64,000 bases of DNA from NCBI GenBank assembly GCA_025786725.1, contig JAHLTZ010000059.1, positions 1-64,000 of the forward strand. Direction: 5' to 3'. Made by a program: the position numbers and the translations under genes. The notes under the pieces were generated by a model that worked only from the letters and a program-made list of their open reading frames with translations, did not search any database and was not told the origin of the DNA. Within the stretch, counting starts at the first letter, position 1; each line of letters begins with the position of its first letter. Of this stretch, positions 7,479 through 63,893 are shown one piece after another. Source of the stretch: Syncephalis fuscata (taxonomy: Eukaryota; Zoopagomycota; Zoopagomycetes; Zoopagales; Piptocephalidaceae).

Positions 7479-10242
7479 ATGGCGCTACGTGTTAATAATC
7501 CTAATAATGTACGTGTTTACACGGTTTCCGGCGACAATTTGTCAAGATCACTGCCGGATTGGCTGGAAAAGAAGCGACGTCGCCAGCTTAACAAAGATCT
7601 CGGTAAATAGCATATTAGCATAACAGTTAGACAAAAAAGTCTTATTATACGTAAATAGATTTTCGGCATCGCGTAGAATTGTTGCAGGACTTTGATTTTC
7701 CTGAAGCGGCAGTTCGAGTAAAAACGACAGCTGATGGCAAATATGCTATGGCTACAGGTAAGCAGCCATTAATACATGGTGATTAAATGGCTTATTAGTT
7801 GGTAAAGGTGTCTATAAGCCACAAATACGTGTTTATGAATACGCAGAAATGTCTATGAAGTTTGAACGACATACCGATGGGAGAATGTCACATTTGAGGC
7901 AGGTATATTGTATTTGAATGAATTACCGTGTACTTACAAATAGTATAGATATTGTCTGATGACTGGACCAAAAGTGTCCATTTACAAAATGATCGATCAG
8001 TCGAGTTTCATGCACAGGGTGGAATTCATTATCGCACACGTATACCAAAGGTAGATATTAGCATTATGATAAATACGATTAATATGACTGACTTGGGCAA
8101 TGTTATTAGTTTGGGCGTGACTTGGCGTATCATTATCCGAGTTGTGATCTAATGGTATCAGCAGCCGGCCCTGAAGTATATCGACTCAATTTGGATCAAG
8201 GCCGTTTTCTTAACTCATTAGTAACAGAGGCTACATCGGGCGTGAATGTATGTGAGATCAATCCGGCACATCAGCTTTTTGGATTTGGTACAGCCGATGG
8301 AACCGTTGAGTTCTGGGATCCTCGTGCACGTGCGCGCGTTAGTTTATTAACACCTCATTTACCGACAAGCGTTGACACCAGTGGACTTGAAGTAACGGCT
8401 TTAAAGTTTAGACATGACGGCTTGTCGATGGCTTTGGGTACATCAACTGGCCATACTATGCTTTATGATTTGCGCCATCCACGTCCCTGGTTGGTTAAAG
8501 ATCAGCAATATGGTTGCCGATTATTTCGGTTCATTGGCATGATGGAGCAGGTGTTGCTGCTGATGCCACGGATGCTGATGGTACAACGCTAGAGGCAGAA
8601 GGTGGTGCCAAAATCATTAGTGCCGATGCCAAAATCATTAAGATATGGGATCGAAATACTGTAAGTTGATAATGAGTATTGATGGCGCTGACTATCAGTG
8701 CTAACATGTGCTATAGGGAGGACTGTTTACATCTATTGAACCATCTGCCGATATTAATAGCGTTTGTCCAGTACCAAATTCCGGAATGTTATTCACAGCC
8801 AATGAGTGCAGTCGAATGCACATCTATTATATTCCTGCACTAGGACCAGCTCCTCGTTGGTGCTCATTCTTAGACAATCTAACGGTATTTAACTAGTTGT
8901 TAGCAATAACAGATCAGTAGCTTATTTTGTACATTTAATAGGAGGAGATGGAAGAGAATCCACAACAGACAACATACGACGACTTTAGATTTGTAACAAA
9001 GAAAGAACTCGAAAGGTTAGTGCTATAAAATACAAGTATTAATAGCTTATGCATATACATATATACATATACATAGTCTTGGTATGGAACATTTGATTGG
9101 AACCAATGTACTCAAAGCATATATGCACGGTTACTTCGTCGATCTTCGTTTGTACGAAAAGGTTGGTTTATAAGCAGTATTTTATTAGTACAATCTAACA
9201 GAATAATAGGCAAAACTGATTGCCAATCCATTTGCCTATGAGGAACACCGGAAACGTGCCATTGCAGAGAAATTGGAGAAACAACGGGAGAGTCGTATTC
9301 GTGCTACTATTAAACTGCCCAAGGTTAATCGTGAGATGGCCGCACGTCTGGCAACCGAAGAGCCAAGTAAACGAAATAAAAAGAAGGCAGAGGTAAATAT
9401 ACAGACTTATAAACATATTTCTACGCCATATTAATGACTATTCATTGTATTAGGCGGCTGAGAGTTTGCTTAAAGACGATCGATTTGCAGATATGTTTGC
9501 CAATCCAGACTTCCAGGTGGATGAAGCATCTGAAGAATTCAAGCTACTTAATCCAAGCTCTGTTCCGGTACGTAAATATTTATTGAGAACAACTATGTTT
9601 ATTAACTTTGTTGCCGAGTAGAAAAAACTCAATTATCAGCCAATTGAGGAAGAAGATGACGAGGCCAATGTCGAAATGGACGTCGAAATGGACGTGGAGA
9701 GTGAGCCAGAAGGACACGGCAGCGACGAATCATCAGGCGATGATAATGGCAATTACCAAACAGATAGTGATGATGGTCAGTTAATGGTAAAAAAGTATTC
9801 ATTACATATTTGTTAACCATTGTTTAATGCAGATTTGGTAACGCAAGTGAGACGTAAACGAGGCGAACGTGTTCAAAAGAAGGAGCGTGAACTGACTCGT
9901 TCACAGCGCGAATCAATTCGACCACAAGACAACCGTCATTTGCGCACACAATCGGGAAGCCGCAAGGTACAAAAACGCCCTCCAAAATTCTACGAAATGG
10001 GCAGCAGTACTGGCGATGCAGCTACTGGTAACAAATCGTTTGGAGAACGGGCCAATGACTTGGCTGGTAAAGATCATAGTCAAATTAAGCGTGGCTCGAT
10101 GCGCGCTATGGAATCTACTTTCCGATCACGAGGACCTCGGGAAAATGCTCGCGGAGAAAGACGTGGAGCTCCCGAAACAAGTCGCGGTCGTGGTCGCGGT
10201 CGTGGCCGTGGCCGTGGTCGTGGTCGTGGTCGTGGCCATTGA
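7479..10242 (+). CDS. NOL10: Nucleolar protein NOL10 / Enp2 homologue
   Basis: WD-repeat nucleolar protein needed for early 18S rRNA processing in the small-subunit processome. The ATG at 7479 opens with VRVYTVSGDNLSRSLPDWL and a KKRRRQ run typical of Enp2. WD-like blades follow (for example EILSDDW region, HFAQGG-type motif, FGFGTADGTVEFWDPRA, LKFRHDGLSMALGTSTGH). The NUC153 motif is clear at 9470-9570: DDRFADMFANPDFQVDEAS. An acidic stretch and a basic C-terminus follow, ending in about nine Arg-Gly units. At least eight short introns are present. One frame break near 8516, after DQQYG, is repaired by one T in a T run, giving the expected ISVHWHDG strand. The long RG tail resembles a GAR domain and could bind RNA or be arginine-methylated; this is inference. 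Confidence 0.9.
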
Positions 10243-39269: not shown

Positions 39270-41319
39270 TTAAATGGTTGGATATACGTCTTCGTTGTGA
39301 TAATCATCAGCAAGATCGCCTCTCCAACTATGCAGTGAATGGCCAGTACCACTGTTAATAGAGTTGTTTATAAACGATGACACTGATAATGATTGCAGTG
39401 TATTAATAGGTTCTGGCGCAATGACATTTACCGGAAGATTGGCTATTTCGTTTTGAAAAATGCTGGCTTGAGAGGGAGTTGAATTGATGAGACCGCCATA
39501 ATGAGCCATTAATAAATGATCAGAATTAATTGAAAGCCTTAGCGTATCACGCACTCTGTCAGGCGAATCGCTTGCTGTGCTGTTGTTACATTGAACATAG
39601 TCATCGATGCTAAAAGTATCTTCACGTCGATCGGCACTACTTGTTTGCACTCTTACAGCTGCCTCAATGGCGGCTTTTTCCTCAGTCGACAGTATTTCAT
39701 CTTGATCAGCTATTAAAGATGTATTGCTTGGTATGGGTGTATCGGCACGGCTATAGCGTATTGTTGCTGCTGTACTGTTTGCAGTCTCAGCCATTTTTTC
39801 AACTGCATCAGCAAGTCCACGTAGCAGCAAATGATGCGAGTTCGACTCGCCACTTAAATTATGTGGACTGTTTGACCGTAGACTAGAGATGGTATCACGT
39901 GGCGATGTACTGGATTTTGTCGACGTATTCTCGTCCTCCAGCTCAGCGCTAGGCTTCAGTGTAATTATGACATCACTAATGCCCTCAGGACGACTTTCGA
40001 GGGTATTTGCGCGATTTACAATGATTGCCGTTGGTATCATTAGCGCATTGCCGTGCTGGGAGATACGCCAATCCACCGATGATGCCGACATGCTTTTTGG
40101 TCGATTGTTGCTCGTGCACTCACCTGTGTTTTCGACCATCAAAGAGTGGCTGGTCCACTGCTTTCCATTACTGTTTGGCGCAGCCATTAGGGCCGATGTT
40201 CGCCGGCTTGTTTTGACATTTACTTCTATATCACTTAATGTATCCCATTCATTTAATCCGGCATTATAGCGAGACTGTCGTGCGGTGTTTATAGTCATTT
40301 TGCTACTTGTATTTATGGAATTGTGTTGCGTCGACTGGCGAGCAATAGATGCTGCTTTTGCCGCCGAATTGATGTAAATACGCTTCATTATGACGAGTAC
40401 AATTCCAGGCCACCAAAAAATATGAATAGGTATTTCCATAATTAAAGAAAGCCAGAATCGACTCATTACTTGAGTGTGAAAAAATCCCCAAGTAATACAG
40501 ATTGATGTGCCACCAAAACAAACTAACCAATTGTAAAGAAAGGTGCGCTGTAGATGATGTACCGAGGCCATTTCTTGGCCATTGGCATTGGATGACTTGT
40601 GAAGTTTAGATTTTCTCGAATGATAATAAGCAAAGAAATGCAGTAGTAGCAAGCAACGGCGCCAAGTATTATTAAATTTATAGACCACATACTGTAGCCC
40701 CACTGTAGGCCCCAGTCAAACAATTCCCAGTCTCCAATGTCTGCGCCATGACCGCCTATATAGACGAATGGAGCCGTCAAGCAAGCACCCCAAAGCATAA
40801 GCACTGTAAAACAGCTGACAAATATCCAGCGTGACGGCACCCAAACTGTCAGCTGTGGACCATACATGTTTGGATCATTATCACAAACTGAATTGCCAAT
40901 CCCTCGAACAAACACTGGCGGAATAGCTTCAATAATACCGGCTAGAAACACGGTAACGCCCATAGACCAAACCAGTACGAAAAGTCATTGAAGAGTTCGC
41001 GTGTCGCAAATGTTGGTAGTGCATCGGTGAGTACCAGAATTGTTTGAATTAACCGGGTAACACATGCACCTAGAAAACAGCCTATCATTCCGTCGGCTGG
41101 CAGTCGAACTATCTTTCCTGATCCAGAGTCTGCCAGTAATGTTGGCCAAAGGTAATGCCAACGGTACCACAGTAAATAGCCACCAAATATAATTGGAACT
41201 GAATGTGCAACTAAACTGATATACATAATCCATCGATGAACCATTTCGTGTTCACACTCGTAGATAGAAAGCATCCAGTAGCATTCTCTTCCAAATGGTG
41301 CGGAATCTGGAAACCTCAT
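39270..41319 (-). CDS. Clustered 7TM receptor-like protein, paralogue 1
   Basis: The ATG at 41319 leads to ECYWMLSIYECEHEMVH, the C-x-W-x6-C signature shared by the cluster. Seven hydrophobic segments follow: IMYISLVAHSVPIIFGG, GMIGCFLGACVTRLIQTIL, a TM3 ending VFLAGIIEAIPP, IFVSCFTVLMLWGACLTAP, INLIILGAVACYYCISLL, LYNWLVCFGGTSICITWGF and MEIPIHIFWWPGIVLVIM. A cytosolic-type tail of about 330 residues is rich in Ser, Thr and Asn. Two frame breaks, near 40945 (within WA-VTVFLAG) and 40530 (within APF-LYNW), need one base each; paralogue 2 has WALAVFLAG at the first site, which supports the repair. No signal peptide is visible, and a short 5' exon may be missing. No known family is recognised. 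Confidence 0.75.
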
Positions 41320-42783
41320 TTAGGCAAGGATTTTTAGCTAAAAAATATTATTACGCAAGATAAAAGATCTATAGTGTATATGAGCAAGATGGTAACAAGC
41401 AATTTTGAAATAATGGTTTAAAAACAAGTCCTGAAAACATTTATTTTCTCCTTTAACATACTGCAGAAAACTACAACTATGACTGGCGTTTATAGTATAA
41501 GGTTCAGCCCAAAGTTATGTAATCTTTCTTATGAAGGATACCATCAACCGTGGATCCTTACAGTCACTATAGACGATCAATTGCAACGATCTAAGCCGGT
41601 GATCAAATAAATCCAGTTTGCAACTAATGTGCCATTATATCAGCCGTATTCTAGCAAATTATGCTATGTTTAGCTTTAATATGTAATTTTATAGTCATAA
41701 TAAAGTAACAATAATATAAAAAAGAACAAATATTGAGCAATATTGTTTATTGCCAGTTGTGTTTGCTTATTAAGTGCATATTTTCATCTTATCATCTTAA
41801 TTTGGCTTGAATAGGTTTATAGTACAATACAAATGAATTAAAATATATGCTTTAAGCGATAATGTAAAATAGTTTAAAGGGATAGCATAGTGTTATGCGT
41901 AAGTTTAACAATTGGTGTCATAACTATTAAACTTTACCATGCTGCTATTCCCCGGCCTATTCCAGATTATGATCATATAGCATTGCGTATTCCAGCACCG
42001 TTAAGATTTATTTTGCCTATGGCAATTTGAAGCAGTTCTATAAAAAGTGCGTATTAGCTATTGTTTGTATAATCTGGGACGACACATGGTCAGTGTGCTA
42101 CTATGATGCAAAGATCTGCATAGCGCATGAGATAGCAGGACTGCTTTTGTGTCTGAATCATTTCGGAAGTGCTTTTGGCAACAGCTTTCATCCATTGCCT
42201 TTGTACAACAAGTAGGTATACGGATAAAGAAAGTCAAGTAACGGCACTTCCAAAACAAAAAAGGCTGTATGACACAAATTTAGAAAGTAGGGCGTTACTT
42301 GGTACTGGGCAATAGACTGGCTACTAGTATACTCTTTGCTCTGTGTGATGGCTTACAATTTAAGAAAATATGCCATGATCCGCGCCAATGGTACAAGAGC
42401 ACCGCTGCAACTTATAAAACAAACAGGATTTTAAGCCAGGATACATATATTATTCTGGTTATGTTGCACAAGACTTAATGGCTCGCCGCTTGCGGAAATA
42501 TTCTAGGCAGCATCATCAGCTGCACGCCATATCGTTTATTTCAAATTTCCGGCATGTTCAAGGAAATGCTAAATTCATTTTGTTCCGTATCCGACGACTT
42601 ACACAGTCCTTGAAACCATTTCTAATTTAATATCGCAATAGTCGTATCAGCTCAGAGAGCAGGCCTGTGCCTGTAAAGTACTCATTTTGAGTGACTGAAT
42701 ATATAATTGCCACCTTAATATGGTTGCACCTGGCACTAGTTTTATTTTACCCTTCAAATTTATCTGATATTAATTTTCATTTC
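41320..42783. other. Intergenic, 1.5 kb, divergent 7TM promoters
   Basis: Between paralogue 1 (minus) and paralogue 2 (plus). Short ORFs with coding-like fragments (for example 42027-42215) do not form a gene. The region could include a decayed gene, but I cannot show homology. Confidence 0.4.
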
Positions 42784-44250
42784 ATGCAGACACTTTGTTT
42801 GCAACGTTCGTAATTGCGCATAAACTTACAGCTGTGCTGTAACTTGCGGCTTTTATTTTATTTTATTTTAGTTTACCATTAACATTCATTATTACTGCTC
42901 ATGCACTTCAAAAAGCTGTCCCTTTTGATGGAAACTGCTTGTGGACAATCAATATTTATGACTGCAAGCAGCAATCAGTGTTTATTTTTGTAGCTTCGCC
43001 AGCTGTGCCATTTATGGCATGGCTGCACTTATGGGAGTTTCCTTGCTAATTTATCGCTACCGACATGTTTGGTCGGTTGAAACGCGCGTTAACAGTGCTC
43101 GATTGATTCGACGCCCCGTTGACTGGATGATTGTTCATTTGGCCTGGTGCTCATTCGCACGTTCAGCGTACACTCTTTTGTTGGCAATTGACGTAATTCC
43201 AGGTGCAGCCATTCGCCAGTTGATTCTGGCATTTACCAATTGGGGCTACTTGTGGGCGCTGGCTGTTTTTCTGGCCGGTGTGGTAGAAGCATTATTTTTA
43301 GTTTTACAACAAACTTCTTTTGAAACTAACTTTCGTTGGTGTCGTGACACAAATCAGCCAAGTAGCCCAGGACGAGGAACGAGAAAGTTTTGTGGCATTT
43401 CACTACACTCGATAATGGAGCGAGGTATTCTGATGGTCATTGGACTCATAGTGTGCGTTGTGCCATGTACGGCCACTGCTCTTTCGTATATGGCTGGTCA
43501 AGCACTAGATACAGAAAATTGGGATGAATACGCAAGACTAGAGCAGCTCAGTTGGCTAACTTGGACTGCAGGCCTAGGATGCTTAGCCTTTTTGGCTTCA
43601 CTCTATCTGGGCTCTCTTTCATCTGTTCTACGCCAGTCGGCAAATCTATTACGCTTAAGCGCTGCAAGTTATGACGCTGATACATCGCAGCAATTATTAT
43701 GGCTCATCAAATTAATGATATGTTTTTATATTAGCAGCACGTTAGCATCTATTGCTCATTCACTATTATTTTCAATAATGTTGGCTCATTTCTACCCAAG
43801 TATTGCTTATTTTGCCTTTTTTGAAGTAATTTGGTGGCCATGTCTTACTTTGATTATATTTATTGTTATTAGTCAAAATAGACAACGGACGCCTTCAAAT
43901 ACATTTGAAAGCAATCAGTCCAACACATTGCCAGCTTTATGGCACTCTGGCTTCTCCAGAGGACTTGCCCAAACTTCAACACAAAGCCCAGGAATGCTTG
44001 CGCTCAATAGAAGCATTTTTCAATCCCAAATTCTTTGCATTCTGAGGATAACTTTTCTGTTCATACCTGGTCGCCTTTAATAGATAATGACACAGAGATA
44101 ACACCAATACTTCCTATACGAACCTGCTCATTACCTCGTGAGTTGCCCCCATCACCCTCTGTCTCTGTTACAGTAGTTATAGAAAAGTCATTTATGGATG
44201 CGGCTGTAAACGCAGTGCCAAAGCACAAGTCGGTGCCAAACTTTTTCTAA
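42784..44250 (+). CDS. Clustered 7TM receptor-like protein, paralogue 2
   Basis: Exon 1 (42784-42809, MQTLCLQRS) splices over 62 nt to exon 2 (from 42872). Together they give a leader containing LPLTFIITAHALQ. The ectodomain has NCLWTINIYDCKQQSVF, the C-x-W-x6-C signature. Membrane segments follow, with GVSLLIYRYRHVW after TM1, PVDWMIVHLAWCSFARSAY, LWALAVFLAGVVEALF (TM3), MVIGLIVCVVPCTATALSY, LTWTAGLGCLAFLASLYLG and CLTLIIFIVI near TM7. The acidic NWDEYARLEQLSW loop corresponds to GDWELFDWG of paralogue 1. Frame breaks near 43013 and 44030 each fit one missing base. After the second, the tail ends VPKHKSVPNFF at 44250. The tail is shorter than in the other paralogues. Confidence 0.75.
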
Positions 44251-44649
44251 TACGAATAAGCCGGTGTACCTCCTACGCTGTATAATTGTGACGAATTCAG
44301 GCTTGTCAAAGTGGGTGCATTTATTTATTATATAAGCCAGTAAATCATTGCTTTATTTCTTGAACATGTCAGCGTGCAATATTTTTATGTGGGTTGGCCT
44401 AAAAGTGTCATGCGACGGTAATTTTTAAATAGTAATCCATTTAAAATATTTTTTGTCAATGCTGTCATTATTTTATTAATGACATTGTTCTATGAATATG
44501 CTTGCCTTTAAACAATTGATAATAATCTTTTACTCCTTAATTATTCTCGCTGTTTATTTGTTTTACAATACTGAACTTTGATATAAAATAAAACTTGAGT
44601 ATAATTTATCGGCTAAATTCATACATTTATTTAAACAATTAAATTATTT

Positions 44650-44810
44650 AATTATATTGTGATTTAGTAACCAAATGACTAAACTTAATAGATGATGCGT
44701 ATTTGATGACTGATGTCACTCATCACCCATCAGCATCATGTTAATAAATTAAATGTTATTAGATGTTAGTCATTTGCCCAAAGCACACTATGGTTATTAA
44801 TAAATTGTTT
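44650..44810. mobile_element. Palindromic MITE-like element, copy 2 (inverted)
   Basis: Reverse complement of 37020-37155 with about 85% identity by eye, including TTAGTAACCAAATGACTAA, the GATGTCACTC core and CACACTATGGTTATTAATAA. It lies in the spacer between paralogue 2 and the BTB gene. The two copies sit in unrelated surroundings, which argues for transposition rather than segmental duplication. Confidence 0.55.
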
Positions 44811-44874
44811 AATATTTGCAATATCGTAGTATTTATCTATTTATTTCGTTGCACTTGATGCCGTACTTTTGTCT

Positions 44875-46521
44875 TCAATCCGCCACGAGTTGTAGAACAC
44901 GAATGCGGTTGTTAGAAGACATTTTCTGCTTGGAATTATCAACCAGATCCTGTTCTTGCACGCCAATAACTATGTGTATATCCTATTAGCTAATCGTATT
45001 AATACATTGTCATTTACCTTCTGCTAATTCTTGGACAACATCATTGGGCAGCCATGCAAATCCATTGTTTGCAGCAATACTTGGCCACCTTACTGTCAAG
45101 TATTCTATACAATTCTAATAAAGTTGCATAATATTGCCATGTTAGGATCGGATATTTCAATCTCATTATACTGGCCATTTTCCTGTTTAATTGGTTGATC
45201 GTTGGTTATAGATTGATTTAGATTTGTTGGTACTGTTGTTGCGAATAGTATTTCTGTAGTTAATTGAGATGAAAAGAAGATGATATTATTCAGCATTTTG
45301 AAAGCGACGTTCTGTCTCTTTACAATAAGCTTTTTGATTTCCATGTAAATCACTAGTTTATCTCGCTCTCGACCAGAAAGAGAAAGCATTGCATCTAACC
45401 ATTCTTTAATTATCTCTGCATTCCAACCAACTAGCAGCTTTGGCAAATCTTTATCAGTCGTTAAACAGCCAGAAAATTCTTTTGCAGCACATTCGATTGC
45501 CCGACTATATATTTCATCATTCATCAAATGGACCTGTGACATCCATTGGGAGGAGTTTGAAGCACCAGCTATCGCTTTCCGTTCTGAAAGCTGCCATTTC
45601 AACTCGTGACATCGCATCAATGTATCAGCTATTGAATTAGGCGTACATTTTCCAATACTAGCTGTAAAATCTCATCACGTTTTTCCTTAGATAAACGATT
45701 AACAAAGTTTGCCGAAAGCCAGGCCCGGTTGTAGCCATGAGTAAGAACATAATTGCAGCCTTTTGTTAATGCAGTCAAGTTGTAGCGTTCCGAAAATGAT
45801 AAAAGACCGGGTATCTGTGGTACACACGTATCACATATACAGCGCAGACCATGAAGGCGATGGACTATTCGGTGCAAGCAATAGGAATGTAGAGATGGGA
45901 AGTCAAGGAAATCGGCTGCACGCCAAATAGCCGTCCAATCTGCTAATGTTAGTGTGGCTTCTTTTTCAGCTGAAGCAACGCTAGAGCCTGTATAAAGAAA
46001 ATGTATCATATATGGCAGTGCGCGCGCAGGAACGCAACTATCTGGCAGGTGAAATTGCCCTAAAGATGATTCAATATAACGATCATCAACAGATAGCATA
46101 GCTCGGAAATATCCAGATCGTGCTGCTAGAGAAATCGGTGTACGCGCTCTTCTGTCTTTTGCTCCTTCAATATTTTATCTGTATCTTCAATGTCTATAAC
46201 CAGTTTTGCATCTCCGTGAGCACGGCTTGCTAAAAGACAGTCTAGCGAGGTAATAGCAGCGTAATAGCTACGCAGTTCAATGGCTGAACTAGATGTCGAA
46301 TTCCATACAAGCTTTGTATCTGATGCCGTATCGTCTCCACTTGTAGTACTAGTGCTATTATCATAAGCTGTATTTGTTGTACAATTGCAACGACCGTAGC
46401 AATGCAGTATAGCTTGGTGTGTTTGCAAGCCATCAATAGTAGTATCGGCAAACATCGGCGCATCACAGTTAGTATCACCGCCAAGAATACAAATAGCTCC
46501 GCTAATTCTTTGCCCAGACAT
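44875..46521 (-). CDS. BTB/POZ-domain protein
   Basis: Probable substrate adaptor of a Cullin-3 ubiquitin ligase or a scaffold protein. The start at 46521 is one choice; an upstream ATG at 46610 opens another frame that would need a frame change to join. A Cys/Thr-rich N-terminus (ICILGGDTNCDAPMFADTT, then HCYGRCNCTT) precedes the BTB core: HGDAKLVIDIEDTD, RRARTPISLAARSGYFRAML, ALPYMIHFLYTGSS, WTAIWRAADFLDFPSLHSYC and YNLTALTKGCNYVLTHGYN. Helical sequence continues to IEYLTVRWPSIAANNGFAWL and, after one intron near 45000, VIGVQEQDLVDNSK, ending RIRVLQLVAD. Frame breaks near 46165, 45655 and 45110 each need one base. The gene sits between 7TM paralogues without visible relation to them. Confidence 0.75.
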
Positions 46522-46610
46522 GACTCTGGTCGAACAAGTAAATGGCGCAATTCCTTAGAGGCATGTGGTAATAGAAAACGTTTAGAAGGCTTAGTGTTCT
46601 TGTGTGCCAT

Positions 46611-47580
46611 AGTAAGTCCAAGTAATTATGGAATTCAAAAACTACAGCGTGTGATAAAGACAACGATTATTCATGCTGGAACATTTCAAAGGTCTTGTGA
46701 TTAGTAATGTACACGACGCTAAATAAAACGTGTGATCCATCCATACAAACTCTTTAGCATGAATGAATACGCTGCTGCTACGATGTTTAAAATAATGATA
46801 TATTCCGCCATATACTGTAACTATATCACTTGGTAAACGAGTAATACAAATACACAAGTAATTCCATATTATTAGCTTCATTTATATTTATTCCCATCAG
46901 GAACCTACTTTAATAGCCAAAAGCTTATTTTGATCAAACACAAAACAATAGAATATATTAAGCAAGCTTTTTATTTAAATCAACAATTTTTGTCTTGATA
47001 GTTTAATATATCCTGTGTTTTATCCACTATTTCAAATTGTTTATTTGATTTTAAGTAGCAAATATGTAATACCGCAGATCCTTTACAATTATTAATAGAA
47101 GCATAAAGAGTAGTATAGCTTGGTTTATACAATTGCTAGAATAATAATGTTCAGTCAATTAGCTTAGTAATAGTGCCACGCTTGTAAAAACAGAATTACC
47201 ATAACGTGAAATGACGTGTTATCTACACATGTATATAATGGTATAACAGCAATAGAAATAAATAAGCCAATTAGTCAAATGGTTTATTTCTATTATTGTT
47301 AATAATGGATAGTATGATGTAGTCGTATTAACGTGACTAGTATTGATCAAAATAGTCATAGAGATGGGATGGATGAATAAGGATGTGTAAATAGCACTGC
47401 AACTGCAACTGCAACATGCTATGTAACTATGATTTAATAATTAATGTTACTTAGCATCTTAATTCATTCATACTAGGATAAATTCTTAGTAACAAATAGC
47501 GCAATACTATGAAACTATGTGTTTTGAATAACTCGCGCAAGTACTTTTGTGCTTAAATTAGAGTCGGCATGCTGTCTTTA
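46611..47580. other. Intergenic, no gene seen
   Basis: AT-rich region. The ORF at 46642-46881 (minus) has no leader, motif or homology I can point to. Confidence 0.45.
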
Positions 47581-47589
47581 TTTGGTAAC

Positions 47590-47935
47590 TGACAACAGAC
47601 CTCAATAGGCTGCCGAAACCTTTGCGTGGTTTAAAACGAAGCTCTAAAGCGCGGACAATATCTTGTATGGTTGGGCAAACGCGCCGTTGCACTGGCCAGA
47701 GCGGCAGTACGTTTCTGGGATCTTTGTGTTGCACTTTGTCTATTTTTGCTTTTGGAGCAGCGCTTGCAGCGTGGGTTTACTGGTCATTGCCATGTTGGTC
47801 GACGCTCCCTTGAATTTGTGTTACGGCGCATTGGCTTTTCGGGCATATTGGACCACGTACATGGTGTTAGTATGGATTGTCAACCTTGATCATACCATCT
47901 CAACAAGTACCCGAGCAACCTATTTTAATTTGTAG
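47590..47935 (+). pseudogene. Membrane-protein fragment, possible 7TM-family relic
   Basis: One frame reads WPERQYVSGIFVLHFVYFCF, CSVGLLVIAMLVDAPLNLC and FRAYWTTYMVLVWIVNLDH, which look like three adjacent membrane segments. They are more GC-rich and codon-like than the surrounding intergenic DNA. The VD...ALAFRAYW part loosely resembles VDWMIVHLAWCSFARSAY in TM2 of paralogue 2. The frame is closed upstream by TAA at 47644-47646, no start codon is evident, and no C-x-W-x6-C motif precedes it. It may be a decayed paralogue of the cluster or an exon of an unrecognised gene. Confidence 0.35.
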
Positions 47936-47940
47936 ATTAG

Positions 47941-48219
47941 TGGTTTATTTGTAAATAGCTACACTGTTGCTGCAACGCCAACATTCTACCATTTGTCTAT
48001 TCTTTTCTTGATGCTATTGAGCTAGCCTAATTTCATTGTTTCTTATTGTCCATAGCAGTTATCCTTACGCGACGCTAACAGCAAGCGTTGTTTCTACTTA
48101 ATCTATTTATCTGCAAGCTGGATACTTGTTACAGGTTTTATTTTAAAATTAACGTCGCACCCAAAAGACAAATTAACAACAACAACAGCAACAATAGCGT
48201 TGGCTCTAATTAACGCAAA
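47941..48219. other. Upstream region of 7TM paralogue 3
   Basis: No ORF of interest. Given the signal-peptide exons of paralogues 2 and 4, an unrecognised 5' exon of paralogue 3 could lie here. Confidence 0.35.
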
Positions 48220-50405
48220 ATGACACCAGAGTCGACTGCGCCAGAATGGACTCACCATTGTTATTGGCTCACTGAAGTGCGCAATTGTCGATACGATAAT
48301 GTCCACGAGAATATTGTCATTTTCAGTTTATGTGCGCATGCCATTCCAATGTTGGTTGGAACACATGCACTATGGCTTCGTTATCGACACTTATGGCGCG
48401 GCCTATACTGTCGTATTCGCGGCCATATTGTGCCATCCACCGTTGAATGTTTGCTTGTCCTTTGGACTGTTGAAAGCTATGCTCGCGTTGCCTTCTTGCT
48501 AGTTACTCTTTTGGGCGCTTGGCCTAGTCCAGTATGGCAAGAAGTGGCGTTTAGTGTTGCTATTTTTCCGTTTATATTTGGTATTATTCTCTTTTTGTGC
48601 GGTTTAATCGCCGCCATTCCGCCGTCACTTACCTATACGCACCATGTTAACGCCGACGGCACCGACAGCTTTCACTGGAGTTTTTCGCATTGGTCGAAAA
48701 TGCCACAGCGACTTTCCGGCGCTGGTGTCTACGTACCATCCATCCGTGCTTTGCAAATCACTACTATTATCATCATGCTTAGTATAGTAGGGGCCATTAT
48801 CCCACTTTCCGTGATGAATGGACTTGCATGGTCGCAAGGCAATTGGGACGCGCTTCTTTACTGGCGAAAAATCGAATTTCTCGTTTGGGGTGCCCATGTG
48901 TTTATAATCTTCGCTATTACCATCTACTACAGCCGCGGTCTATCGGCCATCATGAGAGGCAGTCTTCAAACGCCCGAATCAGAACATGATAACACCGAAC
49001 ACGGCTTTACTTCAACCGACCTCTCGATTGAGCACGGTCAACGCCGAACCAACCGTACCATGAATCAACGACAGTCCTATCCAATTCAAGAAAGCTTTGT
49101 CGAACCGGAGGCCCGCCCAAGATGGCCACTGGCTTTTGTGAAAAATCCTTTGAACCGTCGCCAAGATAGTAGTAATCAGGCCGCAGTCAATGCTGCTACC
49201 CGTGTTGAACACATTTTTACGGTGCTTCATATTGTAACGGTCTTATTTCAATATTCGCTATTATTTGGGCTTTTATTAATCATAAAATTATTTCCGATTC
49301 TGCGGCAAATATTGCTTTAAACATTGGTATGAATGGCATCGTTCTACCATTTACCTTAGGATTTACTTTGTGGAAGCTGCAACAGTCAACACTGGCCACA
49401 TTGCATACACATCTTTCTGCAGTCTATGAAAATACCAAAAATGCACTCTATCGCGTAAAAAATGCTGTACGCTATCCTCAACACATCATTAGTGATATTG
49501 ATGGTAAAGATGACTATGACATTGACGAATCCGTCAACGGTTTTAGAAAGCAGCCATTTGAGATGGCCGAAATCGACGAGGACCGCTACAACTTTTTCAG
49601 GCAAAACGAAGAGTATGTATGGCCAACAACGGCAGCTGAAGAGCAACTTAACCGAACCAACCGACCGGTAAGTAAAATATAACTAATTTGTGCTGCTATT
49701 ACCATTTATTAATATTCATTATTTTATTTAGCCAAGTGTGCCGTCAAAAACAAAACTATTCAAGAGTGCATCAAACGAAGATATTACAGAATTTAGTAGT
49801 AGTTGGCGACTACAAGCGGCATTTCACCCCAACGTCCGTCATCATCCTGTGTCTATTATCAACGGACCTGCCGTGCCACGAGCCATCCACAATGACACTG
49901 ATTTGCAACCAGCATGGTGTGATCGTAGCGATATTAGCATTAAAGAGCCATGGATCCATGTCGAGAACTCTTGCGCAAATAATATGGATTTTTCATCTGA
50001 TGCTATGCCACAAAACAAGCATCTTGATATGGAAGAGCTTGATGCGTTTGGCCCTCATCACAACTTTTACACAAGTCCGCCACGTCCACAATCACCTGAT
50101 CCATATGATCGGGGATTCGCCAGTGATGCAGAACCTGTTAATTATTATTTACGCAACAGCAATAACAATAACAATATTAATACTGTTACTGCTGCTACCA
50201 ATAATAATAATAATAACATTGATAATATTAGTATTGATATTAATGATAGCAGTCATCATCACTACGACGACGAAGATGATAACGAAAATCATATAAGCAG
50301 TTGGTGGACAAGTGCCACTCGGCCATCACCTATCATAATGATATGGATAACTCGTCTGATGACCAAGAGTCAACTCTGTACAGTAATCCCTTTCCAGAAG
50401 TATAG
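48220..50405 (+). CDS. Clustered 7TM receptor-like protein, paralogue 3
   Basis: The ATG at 48220 starts MTPESTAPEWTHHCYWLTEV, with C-x-W-x6-C (CYWLTEVRNC) and then HENIVIFSLCAHAIPMLVG (TM1) and LWLRYRHLWRG. TM2 is STVECLLVLWTVESYARVAF, TM3 ends LFLCGLIAAIPPS, and later segments include ITTIIIMLSIVGAIIPLSV and IEFLVWGAHVFIIFAITIY. NWDALLYW is the paralogue loop. The frame changes near 49275 to INHKIISDSAANIALNIG and FTLGFTLWKL. A 64-nt intron (49668-49731) precedes a long tail with Asn repeats. Near 50325 another break leads to a sensible end, DDQESTLYSNPFPEV, with TAG at 50403-50405, rather than the frame running to 50439. No signal peptide was seen. Confidence 0.75.
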
Positions 50406-51706
50406 TCGCCACTGGCACCATAAGCCATTAATTCAATAATTTAATAACTATAGTTTAAAAATAGCCGTATTTAATTCAAATCATGCCCATTTATCAGCAT
50501 TATTACTAATAGTACTATTATTATCGTCATCATTGCCATTATTGTTAGTCATTTTGCTTTTTTTCTATAAATCTTGTTGCATCTATTACTATTTACTGCT
50601 GTTGTCCGATAATAAATCTAGTTTGTTTGTGTAAAGTAGCCATTTGCTACAACATCAAATCAATAGATTGCTGATAGATACACGTCATTTGCAACACGTG
50701 CTAAATTACCCAATTAGCTGGTTCTTGCTAAATACACAACTACCGTATTCCGAGTTCAAACGGCTCTTTCTTAGTGTGTAACCATCGCTACAAGGAACAG
50801 CATAGGCGACATCCTAGTAAGTTTACTGTTATGATTGCGCAACTGCACATCGGCACATGATATCACTCGTCAAGTATCAGCTGATATGCACCCTGACTTT
50901 AATAGAACTAACATAGTAAAACTTGCAGTTATAGCAGCATTTGTTATTTTGATATCATACGGAAATGGCGAGTATTTATTCGACTGTCCCAATATAGTAT
51001 CGGCGATGACTTTTGTTACTAAATAGAACTAAATATAAAACATTCCACATGTGAAGACTTGAAATAAAAGATCTTTGCTCTTTATTATTTAGTATAAACT
51101 ATTCATTTAGCTATCTATGTTCTGCTTATACGCAAAATAGCACTACTGGAATAAATAAACGCAATGGTTACATTTATTTCTATTTACTAACGACTCATCC
51201 TACCATTATGGCAGGTTATCAAATTGTGTCGATGTAACGATAGCCGCTGCCTTAATAGCATTAACAATACACATTCGGTGAATCAATTTAAGTTGTACAC
51301 AGACACAGACGCCCCGTCCGCACTACCATCATGGTTACAATGATTATCGTTACAGTAGATTGACAGCAACAACAACAGCTACTACGATATAAGGACCATT
51401 TTCTTTATTATTATTAGTATGTCGCCTTTTTTGCCCTTTTTTCGCATTCCTTGATTTTGTTTTCTGTGCAGTGTTGTTGTTAACGATTTATTTGTTGGTT
51501 ACTGTGCCGATACTTACGTTTCCTTTTTTTGTTCTAACTAACACATCACACCGTTACTGCATACCAGTTACTTTACGATACCGTTCTAACGAATTGATGT
51601 TCACATTTTGTTGTGAAAAACCAACTTTTTTGTTCAAATTTAATTGATGTAATTACAGAGCTATTGTCTCTTTTGAACTTGAGTTTGTGCGTTTAATGGC
51701 CCCGCC
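50406..51706. other. Intergenic with one weak small ORF
   Basis: A frame at 50886-51026 encodes MHPDFNRTNIVKLAVIAAFV followed by ILISYGNGEYLFDCPN, which resembles a leader but has only 46 codons. Pyrimidine-rich leader-like sequence at about 51400-51560 precedes paralogue 4. No firm gene. Confidence 0.4.
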
Positions 51707-53656
51707 ATGATTAAACAACACCTACTATTTATTCTATTTATTCTATACTTACTGGCCATCAGTGATGTTGCACTATCAACGGAACCATCTATATCCAGAC
51801 AACTAATAGCAATAATTCCAATCATTATGATCACGATTCAATGGGAATGAATGGCCCATCCTCTGATGAACAACCGCTACCTAATTGTGACTGGCGTCTG
51901 TCGACAAGCAAATGCTATGCCAGTTGGATACATGAAGGTATTCTAGGCACGAGTTTAGGCTGTTACTTTTCCCTTATTCTCGCCGGCACTATACTATTAC
52001 GACGTCGATGGAAGGTTGACTGGACACTGTCACAGCTCGATCGCTCCTATGGACATGCTAGGGCCGATGATGGCGGTATTCGGCGCTACTGTCCTCTTTT
52101 TCGTCGTCTCGTGCACTACACTTATTGTAATGCACAAAAAGCGCCCACCTCGCACCATAGTCGACTCGGTTCGCCGAACAACAACCATGACGATACAGTG
52201 CACTGCAACGTACACGGCACTGGTCGTTGGTCGCGCATGATAACCTCCCCCGTCGATTGTCTCTTGCTATGCTGGACATGCTATGGACTACTAAGGCTGA
52301 TCGGGGTCACCATTACTCTACTCGGATTTATTAGCACAACGGAGATACAAGAAGTAGTATTTAATCTATCGCTATGGCCAGCCTCTATTGGGGCCATCAC
52401 TTTCATGGTGGGCCTAGTAGGTGGTGATCCACCTCGACGTCTTATCAACTGTTCAAGTAATAACGGCCAGCCAAAATACTGGATCCATAGACCACCTATT
52501 TGGTGTCTACAGTTTATTGCTCTATTCCATTTAATTGTCTATCCGGTTGTCACATTAACTTGTTCTATCTATTCGGGTATTAAGGCTGATTTATTTGATT
52601 TCTCGTCATCGCTGCAATGGGATAATATTTCTATATTATTCTGGTCTATTCAAACCTGGCCGTTTGCCATTATAGGCGCCGTTTATATGATTCATTGTTT
52701 ACGAGTACAGCGTCGCTTTAATAGCCCGATTTATCACGAAGCAGCCCCATCTAATAGTAATGGCAATGGCCATGGCCATACAATGACTTGCCAGCCGCTT
52801 AATAATGAAGAGCTGCTTTATATTCGACAACTAAACCGTATCTACGGCACTGTAGCTGCAGTAGGCATTGCCGTTGGTCTATGGACACTTACCGCCTCGT
52901 TATTGCCTGTACGCCGTATTGGTCATACTGTCACCTCATCCATGTTAAGCAATATTGCCTTTAACTGTATTGCCCCCATTCTAGCTATTGTTATTATGAT
53001 GACTGTCTAAACAAATCACGTGTCTACAAAGGCTTTTACAGCACTAATGGAAGTTATCGAATGTTATGGAGTTCCGATAAACGCTTATCTCCTCCAAAGA
53101 TGATGACAGAACAACAACATCCATGGTCAACGAGCAATTCTATTTATTTACCAAAAGGTTCACTTCATCCAACTGACTATCTTCAGCAACAAGCCATTGT
53201 TCTGATATACTTGAAAGTGTTCATTCAATGGAGATGCGATCACCTTCACCTATGAAACCACCTCCTATAGCCTATCAACGCAATGATCGACACCATCATT
53301 ACCAGCAACAGTTATATCATACCAATTCAACTGCTACCACTACAGATCATGATTATAGTAGGACTAGTATAACCAGTGCTACTAGCTATACGCACTATGA
53401 TGATCAAACGGGCAAACGCGTCTTTATTGAAGGGCGTGGTCCTCGAGTGAGTGCCGTGGGCACCCATAATAATGGATTCTTAACAGTGGGCACCTATAAC
53501 GAAGAACGACTCGTTAATAATGCCAGTGAATATATGTCACCACGAGGTTCGTTCTCTAGTGGAGATGGACGTGGTTATATTATTGAAATGTATTCAGTGG
53601 AAGAATCAGCTTATATTGAACGTGAAATTACTGATAGTTGTGATAGCCGTGTTTAA
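51707..53656 (+). CDS. Clustered 7TM receptor-like protein, paralogue 4
   Basis: The ATG at 51707 gives a clear signal peptide, MIKQHLLFILFILYLLAISD, and cleavage is likely near VALSTEP. One base is missing near 51812; the corrected frame continues as a polar NNSNHYDHDS stretch into PNCDWRLSTSKCYASWIHEG, the C-x-W-x6-C signature. TM1 is GTSLGCYFSLILAGTILL, followed by a longer loop than in other paralogues. TM2 is SPVDCLLLCWTCYGLLRLIG, TM3 ends FMVGLVGGDPPR, and further segments include LFHLIVYPVVTLTCSI and FAIIGAVYMIHCL. The last segment is FNCIAPILAIVIMMT. Breaks near 53010 and 53200 lead into a Ser/Pro/His tail (RSPSPMKPPPIAYQ) ending SCDSRV. The C-tail probably lies in the cytosol. Confidence 0.75.
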
Positions 53657-55289: not shown

Positions 55290-57046
55290 ATGTCGTCTCA
55301 AACCACCACTACAAAGATCATGACCGCTGACCATAAAGCAGAGACGGCACCGATAGCCGAACGGACACGTCCTCATCCTGAAGAGATAGATGTGCCTCTA
55401 TTTACACTGCTTACCACCTATATATCCTATGCTATTCTGATTGCTGTTGGGCATGTACGCGACTTTTTCGGTAAGCGATTCCGTCGTGGTGCCTACGCCT
55501 ATTTGATGGAATCGGATGTAAGTAGTAATAGGCGCTGATACGAGCAATCATGGCTAGAACGACGAACAGCCAGTAGATATGAGTTGGGTTCTATTGTTGT
55601 TAATACTATCGCTATTATTGCTATTATTATAGGGATATGCACCCATTATTAGTGATTTTGAGTCTTTATATACTCGTCGTTTGTATTATCGTATTCGCGA
55701 CTGTTTTAACCGTCCTGTAACGGGTGTGCCAGGCCGTACCATTAAGGTATTGGGCCGTGCATCCAGCGATTATAACCGCACCTTCCGTATGACAGGAGAG
55801 GTGCGAGAAGTACTTAATCTTAGCTCGTATAACTATCTAGGATTTGCTCAAAGTCATGGTGCATGTGCTGATGCAGTAGAGGCGGCGCTTAACACGTATG
55901 GACCAGCTGGTGCTAGTACGCGCTTAGATTCGGGTACATTAGATCTACACATAGAAGCGGAGAAGCTAGTGGCCCGTTTTCTTGACCAAGAAGCCTCTAT
56001 TATTGTGTCGATGGGATTTGCTACTAACAGTACCATTATTCCAGCTTTAGTCTCTAAAGGCTGTTTAATCATTTCAGATGAACTTAACCATGCGTCTATT
56101 GTAACTGGTGTGCGTCTATCCGGTGCCGGTATCCGTGTATTTAAACATAATGATGTTGAGGATTTGGAATTAGTGATACGGATGCCATTTCTCAGGGACA
56201 ACCACGCACGCATCGTCCATGGAAGAAGATTCTTATTATTATTGAGGGATTGTACAGTATGGAAGGTGAATTTGCCGATTTACCAGCCATTATTGCGCTG
56301 AAGAAGAAATACAAGGTAAATAAGACGAATAGTGTTTAATGATTGCATTATTGATGTATTGCTATATAGTGCTATCTATTTTTGGATGAAGCGCATTCTA
56401 TCGGTGCCTTGGGTGCACGTGGTCGTGGTATTTGTGACTTTTACGGTGTCAATCCAAGTGAAGTGGATATACTGATGGGTACATTTACCAAGTCATTCGG
56501 TGCAGCTGGTGGCTATATTGCCGGCAAACAGGCCATTATTGATCATTTACGTATTAATAGCTATGCGCCAGTCTATGCAGAAGCAATGCCACCTCCAGTA
56601 CTACAACAAGTTGTGGCATCCATGCGTATGATTATGGGCGAAGATGGCACGGATGAAGGTGCAGAGAAACTTGAAGCATTGGCCCGTAATTCTCGTTACT
56701 TTTCATCGCGTCTTCGTGAAATGGGATTTATTGTGTATGGCAATGCCAATTCACCTGTTGTTCCTATGTTGCTATTCCATCCTGCAAAGATTGGTGCATT
56801 TTCTCGTGAATGTTTAAAGAGAAATGTTGCTGTAGTTGTTGTTTCCTATCCTGCTACACCTATCATCACTTCACGAGTTAGATTCTGTTTATCAGCTGCT
56901 CATACCATCGAGGACCTTGATTTGGCACTGGAAAAGATTAGGTAAGTAATACTGTTGTTGTTGTTGCTACTATTATTAATTGTAATACTAATACAACTAT
57001 TATTAGTGAGGTGGGAGATATTCTTAGTCTCAAGATGCTAGCCTAA
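55290..57046 (+). CDS. LCB2: Serine palmitoyltransferase subunit 2
   Basis: Catalytic PLP-binding subunit of the endoplasmic-reticulum enzyme that condenses serine with palmitoyl-CoA, the first step of sphingolipid synthesis. Four exons: 55290-55517, 55633-56315, 56370-56941 and 57007-57046, about 507 aa in total. An N-terminal membrane segment lies in [19 protein letters not shown]. The alpha-oxoamine synthase core shows [68 protein letters not shown] and the PLP-Lys motif [14 protein letters not shown]. One frame break near 56185, between LVIR and [16 protein letters not shown], needs one base. The C-terminus is LSLKMLA. Identity as LCB2 rather than LCB1 follows from the conserved PLP lysine. 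Confidence 0.93.
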
Positions 57047-58066: not shown

Positions 58067-59197
58067 TTAAGGTTGGGTAATGGCCACTTTTAAAAGCGAT
58101 AATACTTTTTGTCCTAGCACTTGATGAACATGTCGGGTTGGATGCAAACCATCCCAGAAGAAATAGCTGTCAGGATTGGCGCAAACCTTCATATTAGGCC
58201 CCAAACATGGATCGCGCATATTATTGAAAGAAAGCTGCTGCTGTTGTTCCCGAACGTTATATAAAAACGATGCTACATTATAGAAATGAAGTCGTGCATT
58301 GGGTAATCGCTGCTGCATAGCCGTTAAACGGTTCAGCAATAGCTCGTTGTGTTTTCGCGTAGCCATTAAGCCAATGTCTAAATGTTTAGGCTGCATATTA
58401 CGATATAAAGGCGATTGATCCATCGGTGGCATACCCATCACCAATACATGGGCCGTATTATTTGACGAGGCTTGAATAAGATTGACGGTATCCATCATCG
58501 TAGTAACGATACGATCAACGAGACCATTCAGCATTGTTATATTAGTACCAACGGCAGGAACACCCATAACATAATCGTTACCGCCCACTTGCAGTATATA
58601 CAACGGTTTTCCCTCGCGTCTAACTGACGTGGTTAACGACGGCAGTGGATCTTGTCGAGGAAATGTAGGAACAAAATACTATAGCATACAGTTAATTAAA
58701 AGTAACACAGATCAATAACTAATTAGGCTGCATCATATTAATCTTAATACTTACTTCACTGACTTGTTCGTAAGCGGTGGGTACCCAATTCGATTCAAGT
58801 GTACTGGTGGCAGCGCCTGGTGGCAGTATAGTGGCACCGGAAAGAGCACCGCCGAAAGCCAGTGTTACTAGTGGAACTCCTAGACCGTCGGCCATCCATT
58901 CAGACCATACACGTCCATTACTGAATCGTCCCTTGTAGTAAATATTGCCATCGGGTACTGCGCCATTCGTAAGCTCGAATACATTGCCCGTATCGAGTAA
59001 ACTATCGCCAAAAGCAATAATCTCGCTAATGTTGTAGTTATTGCTATTTTTATCAACTGCGGCAGTATAAACTTGCACGCACTAGATGGCGTGGCCAACG
59101 CAGCAAGCAGAATAACCGTGACGGCAATAGTAGCAGTCGCACCAACTGTAGTCGACCAAAAGCTGGGCATGTCCAAAAAGGGTAGCAACAACAACAA
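58067..59197 (-). CDS. Secreted GDSL/SGNH-family hydrolase
   Basis: Esterase or lipase with a Ser-Asp-His catalytic arrangement, probably extracellular. On the minus strand a leader (TVGATATIAVTVILLAALAT) follows either ATG at 59197 or 59170. The frame then changes by one missing base near 59070 into QVYTAAVDKN. Block I is IIAFGDSLLDTGNVFE (nucleophile Ser in GDSL), an oxyanion Gly lies in the FGGALSGATIL region, block III is LQVGGNDYVMGVP (GxND), and block V is FFWDGLHPTRHVHQVLG (Asp and His). One intron lies near 58685-58755. The order and spacing fit plant- and fungal-type GDSL lipases. The substrate is unknown. Confidence 0.87.
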
Positions 59198-62744: not shown

Positions 62745-63893
62745 ATGCGTACTTATTCTTCTTTGACTTTTGCCTGCTTCTTGGTCGCTGCGCTGGCCCG
62801 CATCGATACAACAGCCGCTCTGCCAACCTACAACAGCTATGGAGCTCCCGCAACATACACTGCACCAATGGCTAATCACCAACGACCAGAATTTGGCCAT
62901 GGACGTGAAATGAACAACCGTGACCACGAGCGTTATGGCAAGCCAGCTTATGGTGGCCGTCGCCCTGAGGACTGTGACGACGATCACAAGCCAGCATATA
63001 TTACCAAGCGTGGCTACAACGACTACTCGGCCAAGCCAGCCGGTGGACGTGACCACGACCGCGACTACGACAACCACGGCAAGCCAGGCATGGGTCACGG
63101 CAACGACCACCATGACAAACCAGCTCACGGTGGCCGTCGTCCTGAAGACTGCGATGATGAGCACAAGCCAGTGTATGTCACCAAGCGTGGCTACAACGAC
63201 TACTCGGCCAAGCCAGCTCATGGCAATCGTCCTGAAGACTGCGATGACGAGCATAGTCAAAAGCCAGCTGGTGGCCACGACCACGGCCGCGACTACGACA
63301 ACCACAGCAAGCCAGGCATGGGTCACGGCAACGATCACCACGACAAACCAGCTCACGGTGGCCGTCGTCCCGAAGACTGCGATGATGAGCACAAGCCAGT
63401 GTATGTCACCAAGCGTGGCTACAACGACTACTCGGCCAAGCCAGCTCATGGCAATCGTCCTGAAGACTGCGATGACGAGCATAGTCAAAAGCCAGCTGGT
63501 GGCCACGACCACGGCCGCGACTACAACGACCACGGCAAACCAGGCATGGGCCACGGCAACGACCACCACGACAAACCAGCTCACAATGGCCGTCGTCCCG
63601 AAGACTGCGATGATGAGCACAAGCCAGTGTATGTCACCAAGCGTGGCTACAACGACTACTCAGCCAAGCCGGCCGGTGGTCGTGACCACGACCGCGACTA
63701 CGGCAACCACGGCAAACCAGGCATGGGCCACGGCAACGACCACCACGACAAACCAGCTCACGGTGGTCGTCGTCCCGAAGACTGCGATGATGGGCACAAA
63801 CCCATCCCAGCTCCATACATTCCACCACGCAGGTAAGTTATTTTTATTCCAAATACATTTTTACTAATATATTTCTCGATTAGTGCATACTAA
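62745..63893 (+). CDS. Secreted His/Asp-rich tandem-repeat protein with Lys-Arg sites (365 aa)
   Basis: The ATG at 62745 gives a signal peptide, MRTYSSLTFACFLVAALARI. After a short unique part, the protein consists of repeats. Two 76-residue units (RRPEDCDDEHKPVYVTKRGY, NDYSAKPAHGNRPEDCDDEH, SQKPAGGHDHGRDYDNH, KPGMGHGNDHHDK) are flanked by two shorter 59-residue units that lack the NRPEDCDDEHSQ module, and a partial unit at the end. Each unit has T-K-R-G-Y-N-D-Y-S-A-K, so four Lys-Arg sites in identical context, a classic Kex2 site. It also has Arg-Arg before each long PEDC box. Many His-x-His and Asp/Glu clusters could bind metal. The last codons are spliced: exon 63884-63893 follows a donor at 63833 with TACTAAT near 63862, ending PPRSAY. 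Confidence 0.85.
62937..63790 (+). repeat. Tandem coding repeat, 228-bp and 177-bp units
   Basis: The two central units are 228 bp and the two outer ones 177 bp, differing by a 51-bp in-frame module. Unit-to-unit nucleotide identity is high, with many third-position differences, so the array is not a single very recent expansion. Confidence 0.8.

Follow-up and report, generated by a model that had tools for sequence, protein, structure and literature searches.

A 64,000-nucleotide stretch of the genome of Syncephalis fuscata, a fungus of a mycoparasite genus placed in the Zoopagales, carries four genes, A to D, that we interpret, with a probability of about 0.78, as members of a large, fast-evolving Syncephalis family of seven-helix receptors resembling G-protein-coupled receptors (GPCRs). 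The stretch, hereafter the window, comprises positions 1–64000 of contig JAHLTZ010000059.1, here called C255, which is 76974 bases long. The original prediction, made from the window, had described an orphan receptor-like family with seven transmembrane (7TM) helices that falls outside the named fungal classes and forms a local cluster of four genes. The first part was supported, as 22 members lacked any Pfam GPCR domain and the modelled members had GPCR-like predicted folds (Foldseek alone being weak), but the family proved not to be local. A hand count following own-genome searches with seven members gave 28 loci in S. fuscata: six on C255; one each on C289, C267, C1, C90, C201, C237 and C245; five on C234 (343k, 345k, 898k, 916k and 918k); four on C112 (23k, 197k, 540k and 797k); two on C232 (109k and 165k); and four on C24 (73k, 121k, 173k and 175k). 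Near-identical copies on C284, C185, C163, C63 and C279 were merged in this count, the last on near-equal scores only, and the locus counts are lower bounds that include several fragments. Two of the C255 members lie beyond the window, at approximately 71.6–72.6 kb and 73.9–75.4 kb. Further local groups of the same family occur at C234:343–346k, C234:898–918k and C24:173–175k, so that clustering is not special to C255.

A family hidden Markov model (HMM), built from 18 members with A to D left out, was run against 270 targets that included reversed and shuffled controls. It scored the first piece of C at 125 bits, B at 87, three pieces of A at 75, 51 and 31, and D at 64; the next scores were 10.6 (C's own TM7 piece), 8.8 and 5.5 (other frames of the window), 5.2 (a reversed member) and 3.3 (the best shuffled sequence). 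Because A to D scored far above the unrelated, reversed and shuffled controls, their likeness to the family exceeds chance. A tree of 30 sequences was divided, at a split support of 0.998, into group I, with 10 loci of the A to F types, and group II, with 18 loci of the L029 and L055 types, and hhalign aligned a four-row group II profile with a two-row profile of C and D at a probability of 97.2% (E 3e-11, 163 columns). Within group I, A, B, C and D formed separate deep branches, that of C being weakly placed (0.449). The four genes had been attributed to old tandem duplication; the tree gave them no clade of their own, as gene E, another C255 member, and the F group nested with A and B at supports of 0.85–0.93. 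A four-gene tandem origin was rejected on this single FastTree phylogeny, for which the pieces of A were joined.

The ectodomain signature C-x-W-x6-C that had been read in all four proteins is present in each once the frames are laid out, as the local form of a family-wide C-x8-C ahead of TM1, found in 27 of 30 sequences. At the third motif position, only A to E and their relatives showed Trp; members of the F group carry Ile, Tyr or Phe there (the N-terminal ends of C24:173k and C24:175k stood outside this survey). In most members no more than about 20 residues precede TM1. A TM2 Arg and an F-x-x-G in TM3 are shared across the family rows, a Pro in TM7 occurs in many of them, and most group II rows add VPS before TM4 and A-R-x-x-R-N-I-F before TM6. 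The predicted F-[LM]-x-G-[ILV]-[IV] element likewise occurs in all four window genes, with PP after it in every one but B, exactly as described. The loop N/D-W-[ED] was found in A (GDWE), B (ENWD) and C (GNWD), whereas D has FDF. Protein searches, which scored only about 8,000 candidates sharing common short words and could therefore let distant relatives outside Syncephalis escape, returned Syncephalis proteins and one JGI protein. Searching the PDB by sequence with D, C, E and a profile of 22 rows brought up nothing meaningfully related.

The description of the genes needs one correction: every one of A to D is split over two or more frames. Gene A (39270–41319, minus strand) encodes a GPCR-like 7TM protein with a long Ser/Asn-rich tail, open across three frames, and carries its motif, CYWMLSIYEC, before TM1 at 41254–41283 (minus). 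Gene B (about 42843–44250, plus, ends approximate), also GPCR-like and 7TM, has its core frame at 43019–44080, its motif CLWTINIYDC (42936–42965, plus) in a different frame and its tail end in a third. Gene C (48220–50439, plus), likewise GPCR-like and 7TM, has TM1–6 in 48220–49320, with the motif CYWLTEVRNC at 48259–48288 (plus), and TM7 and tail in 49329–49682; by eye, a putative GT-AG intron lies near 49670–49735, with further tail in 49738–50439. Its relative P0011, of JGI origin, is 69% identical. Gene D (51707–53656, plus) comprises a signal peptide, a 7TM core (51841–53010) with the motif CDWRLSTSKC (51886–51915, plus) and a conserved tail, in several frames; its public model on C255, P0014, is a hypothetical protein of 291 residues. 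Relatives of D are found in S. pseudoplumigaleata (P0012, 616 aa) and S. plumigaleata (P0013, 600 aa), and each unites a hydrophobic start, C-x-W-x6-C, core and tail in one predicted protein, although P0013 as predicted is without stretches corresponding to most of TM1 and TM7. The S. plumigaleata relatives of D and E probably lie on one contig, the longest listed contig being 3046566 bases for both. Two signal peptides had been claimed. Judged by eye, D has one, starting at 51707 in a frame other than the core, and one in B is plausible, in an open frame without ATG. The starts of A and C, like that of P0011, are short, and P0012 and P0013 begin with hydrophobic stretches resembling D's. The first inner loop of D (window about 52040–52260, plus) contains a long insert whose Cys and His residues both relatives retain (Y-T-x-C ... 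C-x-[VI]-H-G) and which may bind metal.

Two AlphaFold models of family members, one of them L029, are seven-helix bundles in the GPCR arrangement, and a structural aligner ranked GPCRs at the top for both, with Z up to 17.7 and 15.9. The charges of the N-terminus and of the first and second intracellular loops (ICL1 and ICL2), together with the D signal peptide, agree with an N-out/C-in topology. Against a receptor, the third extracellular loop (ECL3) disagrees with this topology, and neither model had a Foldseek match at E ≤ 0.001. The latter, with the missing Pfam label and DRY-like motif, would suit 7TM proteins of some other kind (a transporter, enzyme, scaffold or secretory-pathway protein) that are GPCR-like in helix arrangement only. 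We regard this as unlikely, given that GPCRs lead the second structural aligner, that a single Arg is the sole nearly invariant charged residue among 22 rows, and that the signal peptide and short, putatively Cys-paired ectodomain of D, the long conserved tails and the lineage expansion suit receptors. The analyses run produced neither of the two outcomes that the original prediction had named as contrary to it, an HMM match to an already characterised family of transporters or enzymes, or a fold without a seven-helix bundle. Microbial rhodopsin structures in the Foldseek list for L029 raise the further idea that the proteins are microbial-type rhodopsins, acting as light sensors or pumps. This is highly improbable: the 22 members have no Bac_rhodopsin match, and no shared TM7 Lys, hence no retinal Schiff base, was seen in the aligned rows, where L016 has a Lys at the start of TM7 and the TM7 of C lies in another frame. 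No microbial rhodopsin stood among 50 VIA matches for L029, although one may follow beyond those.

Measured against known receptor classes, the receptor family stands apart. Fungal GPCR classes I–XVII (Liu et al. 2025, PMC12842992, with a class table in PMC13308352, each in its available part) share with it seven helices and a fungus with G-alpha genes; the Syncephalis family differs in its own C-x8-C, TM3 and tail motifs and in leaving the Pfam class domains unmatched. At E ≤ 1, Pfam matched 14 families in the 22 members, with no GPCR domain among them. Using the class domain identifiers of PMC13308352, no match was found to PF02116, PF02076, PF11710, PF05462, PF00002, PF03006, PF01036, PF06814, PF12430, PF11309, PF03619, PF05730/PF20684, PF00003 or PF01534/PF01392 (from classes I–III, V, VII–XIV, XVI and XVII) or to 7tm_1 (PF00001; class A, fungal class XV). 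PQ-loop (PF04193, class IV) and RGS (PF00615, class VI) were also unmatched in these members, the window-gene tails scanned being that of A and the first piece of C, with the D tail and the last C piece left out. The E/DRY motif at the end of TM3, in the form generally known, was not seen by eye in 17 rows. Frizzled folds occupied the top rows of the structural aligner, but class A receptors scored level with them to within 1 Z, and, in distinction from Frizzled/Smoothened (class F), the family has no Frizzled or Fz Pfam match and most of its members have the short N-terminus described above. S. fuscata also has class V cAMP-receptor-like (Dicty_CAR) genes, which are candidate receptors too; Pfam detects those, including L001, but not the family described here. 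Aligning the family by hhalign with the 157-residue piece of L001 yielded a probability of 0.1%, a weak test with one short sequence. The putative new fungal GPCRs with DUF6534 (PMC12842992) are similarly a 7TM set outside known classes, proposed as a new class; the consensus predictions given in the available part of that paper are all in Agaricomycotina, and no DUF6534 match was found among the 22 Syncephalis members. The same part leaves 141,666 7TM proteins unassigned, among which those of Syncephalis may figure.

The frame breaks admit a different account, in which the family is real but its C255 members A to D are pseudogenes in decay. All four genes open only across several frames, no duplicate of B, C or D was found in the assembly (nor does more than one copy appear of A, which was not a query), and degraded family pieces exist elsewhere, at C90:10104–10448 (three stops) and C24:175k. 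We nevertheless find assembly error the likeliest cause and decay of the four genes rather doubtful. The adjoining single-copy gene LCB2 is, by eye, frame-broken too; gene E is broken in its C284 copy and intact in those on C255 and C185; and the C255 and C284 copies differ at gene E by 2 mismatches against 23 gap bases in 4061 columns. The tail of D, in a frame other than its core, is still 84–86% identical to its orthologs at the tip. For A and B, decay retains some plausibility because neither has an ortholog in hand. Gap bases also dominated between C255 and C284 at L029 (4 mismatches, 10 gap bases in 3425), making two of six comparisons of redundant contigs; mismatches equalled or exceeded gap bases in the other four, being even for C255/C185 (6 and 6 in 4443) and leading for C163/C234 (23 and 8 in 3728; 7 and 5 in 2646) and C232/C63 (11 and 1 in 3660). 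The lead of mismatches in the last two contig pairs likely reflects allelic difference there.

The tails of the proposed receptors are conserved in places. The 55-residue tip of the D tail (53489–53653, plus) is identical to P0012 and P0013 at 47/55 and 46/55 positions, against core identities of 43.7% and 41.0%, and the E tail is 55.5% identical to that of P0003 (core 62.9%), with runs including RGRSPTNLT and SLSEHNAS. When 28 tail pairs were compared with shuffles, only E–P0003 lay beyond all of them, followed by A–B (6/200) and D–C3 (8/200). In group II, the motif [LIVFA][IVF]W[QH][ST][FL] occurs in 12 of 22 tail pieces, some of them partial and tail-less, starting 22–41 residues past the column that holds residue 333 of L029. 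Counted by gene, the motif is in 9 of the 15 that were read among the 18 S. fuscata loci, and in three of four proteins of other species. It was noticed in the sequences and then counted, with shuffling as the sole control (expected 0.0, 2000 shuffles each). It suggests docking of a common partner. A candidate MAH tail motif common to A and E was dropped, its tail score being matched by 104 of 200 shuffles.

We envisage that a short extracellular N-terminus, held by a disulfide across C-x8-C before TM1, would bind a cue together with the extracellular helix ends, and that the bundle would then change shape. The basic inner loops, ICL1 (where the L029 model predicts a beta hairpin) and ICL2, could engage a heterotrimeric G protein together with the A-R-x-x-R-N-I-F stretch that opens TM6 in group II; alternatively or in addition, output may pass through a cytosolic partner docked on the conserved tail motifs. 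G-alpha genes are present in S. fuscata at two well-supported places (C234:469–470k and C234:484–486k), with two weaker matches; three sites on C212 (164k, 176k and 180k) give class V-like matches, and the one at 180k has a copy on C104 that scores equally. The presence of both indicates that G-protein signalling probably operates in S. fuscata. Class V was seen at three places, on one of which the sole 7tm_1 match falls; with some 28 paralogous loci, the family described here would be the largest receptor-like one in this genome, other GPCR classes not having been searched in the genome.

Mycoparasites must recognise other fungi, and S. pseudoplumigaleata is treated as an obligate mycoparasite (PMC6784888, in its available part). 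According to the accessible part of PMC13308352, class V Gpr1 of the mycoparasite Trichoderma atroviride acts in prey recognition, and some classes sense other organisms. The expansion of the Syncephalis family fits a chemosensing role, directed most likely at host or partner fungi, so that prey or partners may be sensed with uncatalogued sensors; as in the original prediction, the cues may come from host, prey or mating. The titles and abstracts found by literature searches on Syncephalis, Zoopagales, Piptocephalis or Zoopagomycota receptors describe no such family or receptor repertoire. The family would extend a 17-class catalogue tied to Pfam labels, which it escapes, and its tail motifs and a nearby repeat precursor offer handles for finding partners and ligands.

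That candidate peptide precursor, a secreted repeat protein resembling those processed by KEX2, is encoded inside the cluster at 62745–63836 (plus), with repeats bounded by RR or KR. It has 363 residues, is rich in His and Asp, contains a 228-base tandem unit and has, by eye, a signal-peptide-like start. Splitting at KR/RR yields four 16-residue fragments of the form PEDCDD[DE]HKP[AV]Y[IV]TKR, which account for 64 of the 363 residues, and one variant. KEX2-processed repeat proteins (KEPs) are recognised by a signal peptide, three or more repeats separated by KEX2 sites, and a repeat share of at least 15% of the length (PMC6339444, available part), and the predicted protein shows each of these features. 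Its sole Pfam match, PhdYeFM_antitox, is far under the cut-off (18.4 bits versus 29.8). Four near-identical copies of the repeat gene stand in alternating direction on C284, beside copies of E and L029, an arrangement that may be a palindromic assembly artefact. A more ambitious proposal is that an eighteenth fungal GPCR class has expanded in mycoparasitic Syncephalis and that the C255 cluster is a receptor–ligand module, in which the precursor between D and L029/E would release a 14-residue peptide (of the PEDCDDEHKPVYVT type) sensed by the adjoining C-x-W receptor or receptors, whose tails would dock a shared cytosolic partner. We hold this only as a speculative and improbable extension; the precursor–receptor link is no more than suggestive because the position was noticed after the fact and KEPs are present in almost every fungus of the survey in PMC6339444.

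An Rfam scan of the window gave nothing at gathering thresholds. Among the other neighbours, LCB2 (serine palmitoyltransferase 2) lies beside D at about 55300–56945 (plus), with an apparent intron, and its other match, on C2, is only 35% identical. A BTB/POZ-like gene between B and C (45105–46521, minus) has a sub-threshold Pfam match (E 0.051) and is frame-broken. The window also holds a GDSL lipase/acylhydrolase piece (PF00657) at 58067–58603 (minus) and a NOL10-type beta-propeller piece (PF23098) at 8122–8592 (plus).

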